Below, piece by piece: positions 27,159-50,069 of a DNA stretch of 50,069 nucleotides. Under the pieces are notes generated by a model. It did not search any database. It was given only the letters and a program-made list of their open reading frames with translations, and was not told the origin of the DNA. The position numbers and the translations under genes were made by a program. This DNA is from an uncultured Desulfosporosinus sp. (GTDB lineage: Bacteria > Bacillota > Desulfitobacteriia > Desulfitobacteriales > Desulfitobacteriaceae). The stretch spans positions 1 through 50,069 of the forward strand of contig CAKMJS010000087.1 of assembly GCA_927405585.1 (NCBI GenBank), given 5' to 3'. Every line of letters starts with the position of its first letter. The first letter of the stretch is position 1.

Positions 27159-27231
27159 AACCGATAATGGCAAACTTGTCGAAAGGCAAGGACGCAAAGC
27201 TAAAGGGCCTGAAATGGCAGCCAGCTACCGA
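27159..27231 (+). ncRNA. Cyclic di-GMP-I (GEMM) riboswitch, first of a tandem pair
   Basis: The core pattern ggcaaac..gtcgaaaggc..gGACGCAAAGC is followed by gggcctgaaatggcagcc and agctaccg. These are the conserved GNRA-like tetraloop/receptor and ligand pocket elements of the GEMM-I aptamer. A second copy with near-identical core follows 55 bases later. Between them lies only a weak AT-rich hairpin, not a convincing terminator. Confidence 0.9.
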
Positions 27232-27285
27232 AGATAAAATTTTTTTATTTTGTCCATTCAACGGATCGTAGTTAATTCACATTAT

Positions 27286-27366
27286 TCGCTTCTCAAGCGA
27301 TAAAGGCAAACCTGTCGAAAGGCAGGGACGCAAAGCTAAAGGGCCTGAAATGGCAGCCAGCTACCG
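27286..27366 (+). ncRNA. Cyclic di-GMP-I (GEMM) riboswitch, second of the pair
   Basis: The core sequence from 27304 repeats the first aptamer with only a few changes. The P1 3' strand (ctaccg, 27361-27366) runs directly into the ribosome binding site AAAGGAG (27367-27373), with the ATG at 27382. This spacing implies that ligand binding controls access to the translation start of the lyase gene. Confidence 0.92.
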
Positions 27367-27381
27367 AAAGGAGAACTAAGT

Positions 27382-47640: not shown

Positions 47641-47842
47641 ACTACGATGGACATTGAATGCGTGGTCCCACTCCCACACCCATTCCCACACTCAAAGTGG
47701 AAGTATTTAGAAGTGGGAGTTTAACGATTGGATAAAAACCTGCGAATTATGTTGGAAGGAGGGGGATCAAGGGTAAGGGATTGAGGGGTATTAAGACTTA
47801 AATGAGATGCGTAAACACGTATTAGATGGAAGGAGTATGGAT

Positions 47843-48808
47843 ATGAAAAAGAGATTATCATTAGGCATAGTTGTGGCCTTGTCTCTCGCCTTAGCTTTTG
47901 GGGGAGTAATAGGATGCGGTGCAAAGCCAGCACCAAAACCAGCTGAGACCACACCACCTGCTGCGACTGACGTAGCTAAAAAAGGACCTACGATTAAGAT
48001 TTCATCCAAGACCTTTACAGAAGCGGCACTCCTAGGAACAATGAGCCTGCAATACCTTAAAGGGCTCGGGTACCCTGTGGAAAATAAAATGGGACTTGGA
48101 GAATTGGCCGTCATTAGACCAGCTCTGACTTCAGGACAAATCGATCTTTATTGGGAGTACACTGGTACAGGCGTGATCAACTTAATGGAGCATGCCCCTG
48201 TGTTTGAGGCCGAAGAGAGCTATAAACTTATTAAAGAGTGGGATGCTAAGAACAATATCGTATGGCTGGATTATGCTCCTTTGGATGATACCTATGGGAT
48301 TGTAGTCCGCGGAGATGTCGCTGAAAAATATAAACTAAAAACAATCTCGGATTATGTTGCCCTTGCTAATAAAGGTGAAGGCTTGAAATTCATCGGCTTC
48401 CCTGAGTGGGAAGGAAGAGCGGATGGATTGCCATCTTTCGAAAAGACTTATGGTTTCAAAATGCCTAAAGCTGATTATGTCAATGTCGCAATGGGCCTAA
48501 ACTATGAGACTCTGGCTGCCAAAAAAGGAGATCTGGCCCTGGCGTTCACGACAGAACCAAGAATTATCACGGATAAGCTCGTCATGCTCGTCGACGATAA
48601 GAAAGCATTCCCTGTTTATAATGCTGCTCCTGTCGTAAGAAAAGCAATTGTTGATGCCTATCCTACATTGGCTGCTGATCTTAAAAAATTAAGTTCGCTG
48701 CTCGACACTAAGACCATCACAGAATTGAATAGGCAAGCAGACGTTGAGAAGAAGTCTGTTGAGGAAGTTTCCACGACGTTCTTGAAGAGTAAGGGTTTGT
48801 TGAAGTAA
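47843..48808 (+). CDS. Substrate-binding lipoprotein of the betaine-type transporter (OpuBC/OpuCC-like)
   Basis: The 321-residue protein has a lipoprotein signal peptide with lipobox VIGC (Cys at about 23) and then an OpuAC-type domain: KISSKTFTEAALLG near 55, LGELAVIRPALTSGQIDLYW and EYTGTGVINLM. It should capture the quaternary amine outside the membrane; Tyr and Trp residues form the cation-binding cage in known members. ATG 47843 is preferred because AAGGAG lies 7 bases upstream; the ATGs at 47837 and 47807 are less well placed. It completes the transporter operon. Confidence 0.9.
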   Translation: MKKRLSLGIVVALSLALAFGGVIGCGAKPAPKPAETTPPAATDVAKKGPTIKISSKTFTEAALLGTMSLQYLKGLGYPVENKMGLGELAVIRPALTSGQIDLYWEYTGTGVINLMEHAPVFEAEESYKLIKEWDAKNNIVWLDYAPLDDTYGIVVRGDVAEKYKLKTISDYVALANKGEGLKFIGFPEWEGRADGLPSFEKTYGFKMPKADYVNVAMGLNYETLAAKKGDLALAFTTEPRIITDKLVMLVDDKKAFPVYNAAPVVRKAIVDAYPTLAADLKKLSSLLDTKTITELNRQADVEKKSVEEVSTTFLKSKGLLK

Positions 48809-48862
48809 GCGACTTGAAGAGAGAAGAGGTGCGATTGCGGGTCGTAAGGCCGGTTCTGCTGG

Positions 48863-49081
48863 GGAGGGTCCGCGATCACACTTGTTCAGCCATGCGATTG
48901 TCGTGCCAAACTAAGGCTTTAATCCTTAATGGAAGCGGGCAGGGTTCCCGGCAAATGCGACATCCTTGTCGCAGTGCCGGCGGGAAACGTCCTTGTTTCC
49001 CGCCCTGCCGATGAGAGGGATTAAAGCCGAGTTTGACTACGACGCACGCATAGGCTTCTCGCCGTGTGATTGCGACCCTCC
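48863..49081. repeat. Palindromic unit 1 of a tandem array
   Basis: The 63-base left arm (48863-48925) is about 75% complementary to the right arm (49018-49081). The apical part carries two further hairpins: gcgacatcc/ttgtcgc (48957-48972) and ggcgggaaac...gtttcccgcc (48979-49004). Open frames on both strands are by-products of the palindrome. A linker with two smaller hairpins (about 49096-49140) follows. Confidence 0.85.
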
Positions 49082-49163
49082 TGCTTTGCGGGTCCTGGAC
49101 CGGGACTTGCTCAAGCAAGTCGGCACCTCTGTATCGGTGCTGCGCCGGAGGCTGGGTCCGCCG

Positions 49164-49380
49164 GGAGGGTCGAGATCACACTTGTTCAGCCATGCGATTG
49201 TCGTGCCAAACTAAGGCTTTAATCCTTATGCAAGAGGGCAGGATTCCCGGCAAATGCGACATCCTTGTCGCAGTGCCGGCGGGAAACGTCCTTGTTTCCC
49301 GCCCTGCTTTTAGTAAGGGATTAAAGCCGAGTTTGGCTACGACGCACGCATAGGCTTCTCGCCGTGCGATCACGACCCTC
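49164..49380. repeat. Palindromic unit 2 of the array
   Basis: This unit is almost identical to unit 1, with the same arms and the same two apical hairpins. The following linker (49381-49517) has the same stems as the first linker (ACTTGC/GCAAGT and GCACC/GGTGC) but with longer loops, plus two copies of ggggacggttct (about 49407 and 49479). Confidence 0.85.
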
Positions 49381-49517
49381 GGGCTGGCAGGATCTAGAAC
49401 GGGAGTGGGGACGGTTCTTACTTGCATATTCTAGCAAGTCGCACCTATCTCTTGGTACTTACCGTAGGGTGCGGGAGAGGGGACGGTTCTCGCTTGCATC
49501 CTTGGGAGGGTCCGCCG

Positions 49518-50069
49518 GGAGGGTCGAGATCACACTTGTTCAGCCATGCGATTGTCGTGCCAAACTAGGGCTTTAATCCGTATGCAAGAGGGCAGGGCGA
49601 AACACGGATGAGTGTTTCGGCAAATGCGACATCCGCTGGCCATGGACGGCCGAGTGTCCCTGTAGCCATGGACGGCGAGAAGGGACCTTGTCGCAGTGCC
49701 GGCGGGAAACGTCCGTAAGCAGAATGAGATGTTGTCGAAGATAGCCCAACCGTTCTTCGTTCCGTTTCGAATCCAAGCCCGGGACGCAGTGTCACACGAG
49801 TGCGACGTCTTTACGTAAGCCGTTTAGCAAACTTCCGTGTAAGTGACCCCATATACGGGGCTGAGCACAGGACGTGCGAAGCCGGCAACTGAGTCAAGGA
49901 AGGCGAATTTGACGGGGACCCCGCTCCCACTTTAGGAGCTTACACGGTTAGTTTGCTCGGCGTCGTAAGTACCGAGCGCTGTGTCACACAAGTCCCGGGC
50001 TTGGATTCGAAACGGAACGAAGAACGGTTGGGCTATCTTCGACAACATCTCATTCTGCTTACGGACGTT
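49518..50069. repeat. Palindromic unit 3, with hairpins inserted in its loops
   Basis: The left arm is nearly identical to units 1 and 2. Three loops are altered. The first contains cgaaacac...gtgtttcg (49598-49619). The gcgacatcc/ttgtcgc hairpin has about 53 extra bases (49635-49687) with two copies of gccatggacgg. The ggcgggaaac hairpin contains a 362-base palindrome whose 78-base arms (49708-49785 and 49992-50069) are perfectly complementary. The right arm of the unit lies beyond the window. Confidence 0.85.
49826..49957. other. Structured core of the largest palindrome
   Basis: A closing stem, agcaaac plus ccgtgtaag (49826-49843) with cttacacgg plus gtttgct (49939-49957), encloses several small hairpins: cccc/gggg, gcac/gtgc, gtcaa/ttgac and ggggacccc. 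It reads like a compact folded RNA or DNA. It was not matched to a known family. Confidence 0.5.

Follow-up and report, generated by a model that had tools for sequence, protein, structure and literature searches.

The window, that is, the whole stretch of DNA analysed here (50,069 nucleotides), is the complete contig C87 of an uncultured Desulfosporosinus sp. (G000:C87:1-50069), whose genome comprises 4.48 Mb in 181 contigs. Towards its right end it carries an opuCC-like gene (47837-48808, + strand). This ORF matches Pfam OpuAC (PF04069, E 1.8e-51), the substrate-binding domain of a glycine betaine transporter; its closest relatives belong to Desulfosporosinus, and homologues were found in 21 loci. 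An array of palindromes sits 3' of the stop codon. It is made up of unit 1 (48863-49082, - strand), linker 1 (49083-49162), part of which resembles sequence in other loci, unit 2 (49163-49382, - strand), linker 2 (49383-49516) and unit 3 (49517-49714, - strand), followed by a 362-base hairpin. We refer to the element of units 1-3 as U and to a sister element within the 362-base hairpin as I; each is about 220 nt long. Units 1 and 2 are complete, while unit 3 reaches no further than its tip 1. Elsewhere in the window, two tandem c-di-GMP-I-GGC riboswitches are located at 27160-27233 and 27296-27369 on the + strand.

The earlier note had described three tandem units with shared arms, and an 89-nt repeat family at 48854, 49154 and 49508 bore this out. 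The higher GC content that it had assigned to the array was likewise found (0.576 at 49001-50000 vs. 0.351–0.534 in the remaining 1-kb steps of the window). Unit 1 folds into a long hairpin with two apical hairpins, as had been proposed, and its folding energy of -121.4 kcal/mol was equalled by none of 200 shuffled sequences (-71.7 ± 4.6 kcal/mol, z -10.9). On the - strand, its tips read CAAGGACG (tip 1, 48988-48995) and CAAGGATG (tip 2, 48961-48968), an assignment based on the sequence and on the tip statistics given below. The idea that the linker hairpins behave like the units did not hold up for linker 2, whose fold barely beats shuffled sequences (z -1.5, 16 of 200 equally good).

The U element proved to be a genus-wide Desulfosporosinus repeat that matches the Rfam family TwoAYGGAY (RF01731, clan CL00106). 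With a gathering score of 43, unit 2 lies above the threshold (49191-49352, 46.6 bits, E 1.7e-4) and unit 1 just below it (42.7 bits); the I element of the window scores 29.6 bits, which is below the threshold, and an I copy at G000:C112 reaches 48.3 bits. The host element family is thus already known and can be called TwoAYGGAY-like. U and I share with TwoAYGGAY the two apical hairpins, the A(N)GGA(Y) tips and the long stem. They differ in that they are dispersed, with up to tens of copies per genome, lie mostly antisense to genes and have tips that carry modules, three traits for which we found no description in those parts of the open-licence literature that our searches reached.

A search of the genome and its relatives, which the earlier note had suggested for the shared arm block, returned many copies. 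Our own genome yielded 97 BLAST matches to the array region, a figure that counts the window itself and the pieces of composite copies. At E ≤ 1e-10, U matches occur in 21 and I matches in 27 of the 28 genus genomes (own genome included), and a single genome can hold up to tens of copies (0–63 U and I matches in the genus genomes with csrA). For further analysis, 120 regions of relatives, 32 regions of our own genome and the window supplied 147 copies of near full length, 71 of U and 76 of I. We excluded copies that covered less than 88% of the query, exceeded 112% of its length or ran off the end of a locus, and loci L067 and L068 were omitted because L186 and L099 occupy the same places; one duplicate U row was removed, leaving 70 of the 71 U copies in the alignment. 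The sample is incomplete, since the copies of the relatives were picked by hand and are mostly the best among the matches listed.

Each element, whether U or I, has two apical GGA hairpins, and 279 of 292 tips follow the consensus CA(N)GGA(X)G, in which N is an optional free base and X is mostly C or T/U. The A-GGA portion is nearly invariant across the tips, with N free. Among the pairs of the consensus stems that are at least 80% Watson-Crick, 32 of 68 in U and 23 of 66 in I show a change on both sides that preserves Watson-Crick pairing, and on the tree these pairs underwent 82 and 59 changes, respectively, from one Watson-Crick pair to another. Such compensatory changes support the earlier suggestion of a folded DNA or RNA with selected stems. 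Which strand would fold is less clear. Read on the GGA strand, the same pairs changed to GU more often than to AC (69:39 and 59:39 on the tree), but no clear excess appears when all pairs are counted (95:102 and 103:105 alignment cells, 72:58 and 80:71 events). Folding stability favours the GGA strand in just 27 of the 71 U copies and 15 of the 76 I copies; once the tips are neutralised, it does so in 27 of 67 (P 0.08) and 13 of 69 (P 2e-7). The strand evidence is split, with folding energy and GU/AC changes pointing in opposite directions.

The earlier note had proposed that the array grows by insertion of palindromes into palindrome tips, and had named three loop positions of unit 3 at which this should have happened. 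Two of these stood up. Tip 2 of unit 3, GCGACAAGGATGTCGC, is divided as GCGACAAGG and GGATGTCGC by a module of 51 nt (49635-49685), which we call D' and which accounts for the change that the earlier note had put at 53 bases. It is a double hairpin that carries the same kind of tips as its host in reverse orientation, so that its own GGA tips lie on the + strand, and it has CC on both flanks (GG on the - strand). A 22-nt hairpin (49598-49619) stands in place of a few bases and has close parallels in L040 and L041. The third change, the 362-base hairpin, is poorly supported as an insertion, as discussed further below.

Growth by tip insertion is well supported, mainly by copies elsewhere in the genus. 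A pattern search of the fetched loci, which demanded a GG...GGA junction and a complementary stem and left the length and identity of the insert free, recovered D' at an ANGG|GGA junction in 19 non-redundant cases from 10 genomes and 9 host stems. The inserts measured 51 nt in 12 cases, 50 nt in one, 86 nt in four, and 139 and 147 nt in one each; those of 86 nt consist of the 51 nt of D' and a 35-nt hairpin in the module's own tip. Either tip of either element can serve as host, and two I copies of genome G004 have D' in both tips. Another module, C, follows CA(A/T)G in all 13 rows and in several hosts, including the tip of a D module. The deepest nest that we saw has three levels, with C inside D' inside an I element (L201). 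In addition, 45 of the 55 internal ends (positions 60–150) of the partial U matches among the matches listed fall into two tip windows that cover 19 of 91 positions (binomial P 7e-22, an optimistic value, since pieces at contig ends were kept and both halves of split copies were counted).

Hosts with and without inserts could also be compared behind the same gene, after grouping copies by the 450 nt that precede them. We used only I groups as examples, since the 450 nt before arrayed U copies can themselves hold repeats. In one group, module B is present in L044 and absent from L093, L096, L129, L130 and L171, the last of which is about 37 nt longer than the remaining copies; in a second, it is present in L041 and absent from L109, L112, L134 and L148. 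In a third, L201 (genome G001) has D' in both tips and L025, L124, L142 and L145 have none. This third group represents an I element that lies behind one gene in five genomes; in L145 that gene encodes the SRP protein Ffh (Pfam SRP54).

Several counts speak against a uniform picture. By eye, 12 of 26 D' BLAST rows lie in U or I tips, the remainder being longer forms or fragments elsewhere. Module A sits at a hairpin base and module B after GGAC in tip 1, and each of the two may be one old event that was copied many times; the 35-nt module and others have no single common cut. The GG repeated on both sides of D' in the 19 cases may be a target-site duplication such as a MITE would leave, or it may belong to the module. 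Nesting might also arise without a dedicated enzyme, if SbcCD-like nucleases opened the tips, or replication stalled, and nearby hairpins were then joined in or copied by template switching. Such a process would agree with the observation that the exact cut differs by module (C between two Gs, D' after GG, B after GGAC) and that some modules replace host sequence instead of being inserted into it (L043, L047, L051). It does not readily explain why D' shows one and the same junction, and one basic length, at 9 different host stems. We consider this route unlikely and prefer insertion directed to the tips.

The 362-base hairpin contains the I element's left flank (49723-49771, + strand), the I-type element itself (49772-49996), which is oriented oppositely to the units and whose GGA tips (+ strand) occupy 49868-49874 and 49895-49902, and a perfect inverted copy of the left flank (49997-50069). 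Its 78-base arms are indeed perfect in the text, and the extra arm starts at the end of the I element's own outer stem. The right arm extends to the final base of the contig, which stops at 50069, the last base of the window, ahead of the predicted return to the interrupted unit. Contig C151 of the same genome (L034) terminates in a perfect fold-back of 136 nt, and exact stretches of 141 nt are common to some other contig ends. Given the position of the 78-nt arms at a contig end and the fold-back of C151, we read the outer arms as a probable fold-back copy, made either in vivo or as a library artefact. That these arms, and these only, are an assembly artefact is fairly likely, as right arm and contig finish together, C151 ends in its own fold-back and some other contig ends have the shared 141-nt stretches. 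However, a fold-back duplication in vivo would give the same picture, and just these two of 35 contig ends from several genomes fold back perfectly on themselves.

Relatives offer a simpler origin for the I element. In Desulfosporosinus sp. BRH_c37 (L068), an I element adjoins a U copy behind the same opuCC gene, and the window's I aligns with it over insert positions 16-288 (L068:7696-7971), left flank included. With this orthologue next to U, unit 3 may be merely broken at tip 1. The I of the window is probably the opuCC locus's own copy, in which case no insertion into unit 3 is required. U followed by I is also found at the opuCC locus of D. fructosivorans (L067), where alone of the two module A is present; L069, L078, L080 and L081 have neither element at this locus. 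A different large hairpin (GACTTAGC...GCTAAGTC) lies behind opuCC in L069 (10920-11400) and L080 (10930-11700), and that of L069 holds a hairpin resembling module A, which is missing in L080.

Most copies lie at the end of a gene or a short way past it. A naive ORF caller (not annotation) served for both the orientation and the stop codon counts. In 126 of the 143 copies for which it made a call, the gene 3' of the GGA strand is encoded on the other strand; among the 117 copies with both neighbours called, 69 are antisense to both, 34 lie between convergent genes, 11 are sense and 3 divergent. The stop codon of the upstream ORF falls between -5 and +20, counted from where the element begins, in 45 of the 76 I copies and 21 of the 71 U copies, without such a peak at the other element end. 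For I, it is mostly found at -3 (17 copies) or at +10 (14 copies), and at +10 the element itself supplies the TGA. Ten such upstream genes, chosen by hand, were compared with Pfam; each matched a family, nine of them above the cut-off, and the matches include SRP54 (Ffh), HemN_C, a class I tRNA synthetase and a cell-wall hydrolase. Orientation was also compared with the replication strand at 18 loci: the copy at L115 follows its gene and not the contig majority, and L158, L156 and L165 are exceptions. The anchoring to stop codons is odd and calls for an explanation via the mRNA or via selection.

One such explanation is a 3'-UTR element, in which the strand co-directional with the gene would fold past the stop codon and influence the mRNA at its end, in its stability or in its translation. 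The stop codon peak, the Pfam matches of the ten upstream genes, the one main polarity and the presence of I after one and the same gene in as many as seven genomes all agree with it, as does the fact that the mRNA strand is the more stable fold in I. For ERIC elements, PMC2229807 describes action on mRNA that depends on orientation, including effects on mRNA stability. On the other hand, the GU changes in the best pairs favour the opposite strand, and copies that follow one gene in different genomes resemble each other no more closely (mean 0.861) than do other copies from different genomes (0.857), which fits turnover or conversion better than a locus-specific function. Copies within one genome are more similar to each other (mean 0.901, n=43). 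Such a pattern could mean that insertion has struck the same sites more than once or that copies convert one another within a genome. A role in the 3'-UTR is conceivable, but we regard it as doubtful.

A second possible function concerns CsrA, the protein that CsrB sequesters. The CA(N)GGA(X)G tip looks like a CsrA-type docking site, and binding of CsrA to the tips is plausible from their sequence. The GGA strand might be transcribed as a sponge, with the paired ANGGA hairpins sequestering CsrA and nested modules adding or removing sites. Like CsrB-type sponges, which have several GGA hairpins in one RNA, the elements have more than one (two per element), and E. coli CsrB (RF00018) belongs to the same Rfam clan, CL00106, as RF01731. 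Our genome encodes a CsrA of 77 residues adjoining FliW (Pfam). The near invariance of A-GGA with a free N and the excess of GU over AC changes among the best pairs also favour a sponge. In genome G023, where no csrA was detected, the sole full-length I copy (L219/L226, G023:C129:21015-21227) has the tips CACAAAAATGTG and CCAAGAATGG, in both of which GG is lost, while its stems are kept.

Several observations do not fit a sponge. The GGA strand is antisense to the adjacent gene in most copies and rarely the more stable fold, the GU excess vanishes over all pairs, and D' goes in reversed and divides the host tip. The csrA-less genomes G024, G004 and G012 retain intact tips in full or long copies. 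Co-occurrence with csrA is weak: RF01731 matches were found in 34 of 69 genomes of the class with csrA and in 2 of 13 without (P 0.03), and in the genus the csrA-less genomes have 5, 5, 1 and 5 U and I matches vs. 0–63 in the others (P 0.014), comparisons that are confounded by completeness, since two of these four genomes are less than 80% complete. In addition, G015 gives three csrA matches but lacks both U and I matches. We regard the sponge as a tentative and rather unlikely explanation. CsrA binding had been proposed for TwoAYGGAY before (PMC4333381), and the accessible part of that 2014 paper presents CsrB-like RNAs of Firmicutes as predictions only. For this phylum, U and I supply candidate CsrA-binding elements in large number and with much natural variation. 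It would be an improbable coincidence of roles that one tip, CA(N)GGA(Y)G, is both a CsrA site and the docking site for tip-directed insertion, so that sponges anchored behind stop codons keep growing by the recursive capture of further CsrA hairpins.

The constant junction of D' makes an enzyme that recognises hairpin tips the best inference, in line with this part of the earlier note, although our searches of the genus did not turn up the enzyme and the candidates considered do not track the elements. Y1_Tnp gave no match in the element-rich genomes G022 (85% complete) and G027 (99% complete), which led us to reject a Y1 transposase as mobiliser. IS607 insertions use a GG target (PMC6188088). 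IS607 TnpA scored above the cut-off in just 3 of 28 genomes (G000, G013 and G020), which do not include the D'-bearing genomes G001, G004, G005, G006, G008, G017, G018 and G021, and was likewise rejected; G001 has IS607 TnpA pieces below the cut-off, and weaker serine recombinase matches are common in the genus. A parental transposon for D' was not found in the genus genomes.

Taking as directly observed the family, its stems, tips and insertion points, their recurrence and the antisense placement, we favour the reading in which non-autonomous mobile palindromes of Desulfosporosinus have clustered to form the array, with modules inserted recursively into hairpin tips by a putative tip-directed enzyme (probability about 0.6). 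In U and in I, a long stem bears a pair of hairpins with CA(N)GGA(X)G tips; both elements lie at or near the 3' ends of genes with the GGA strand mostly antisense, and small hairpin modules (C, D' and others) enter the tips of U, of I and of one another. C and D' use fixed junctions and bring along further tips of this type, so that growth is recursive. A recombinase or transposase acting in trans would carry out the insertion on recognising extruded hairpin tips that have a GG core. Within a genome, the elements would spread or become homogenised, and binding of CsrA to the tips may form a second layer. We regard recursive tip-directed insertion as a real process in a repeat or RNA family that is known but poorly understood. 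Across a genus, several modules recursively use one fixed insertion point in tips, and this points to an enzyme that senses the structure of DNA or RNA in addition to its sequence. As far as our searches show, the listings and abstracts of the open-licence literature describe neither fixed-junction nesting at CsrA-like tips nor anchoring at gene ends.

Other mobile palindromes share single features with this system. The GC clusters of yeast mitochondria (GC42) are likewise short palindromes that move, in their case into a 2-nt target (AG), and clusters merge and are shuffled (PMC4478555); genome type and target differ from those of the U and I modules, and in the text accessible to us we did not find clusters entering the hairpin tips of another element at set positions. 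REP/REPIN sequences mobilised by RAYT are non-autonomous hairpin repeats as well, but U and I are larger, and the Y1 transposase was not found in the element-rich G022 and G027. ERIC, NEMIS/Correia and YPAL are stem-loop elements of about 100–200 nt that are able to act on mRNA; several of these families have TA duplications at their ends, and what sets U and I apart is the nesting in tips. The small dispersed repeats of cyanobacteria are similar in that very small mobile repeats have been reported within hairpins.

The left borders of the I elements deserve a brief description. Truncated starts precede the full copy in many copies. In L098, L101, L102, L103, L106, L114 and L120, a partial element start, GGGACTTGTGTGA or a sequence near it, lies directly before the full I and ends in TGA. 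Left of many I elements (L048, L050, L051 and others) we observed short tandem repeats, for example (CGTTCTC)n, together with the hairpin GACGGTGCACATGAAATGTGCCGTC.
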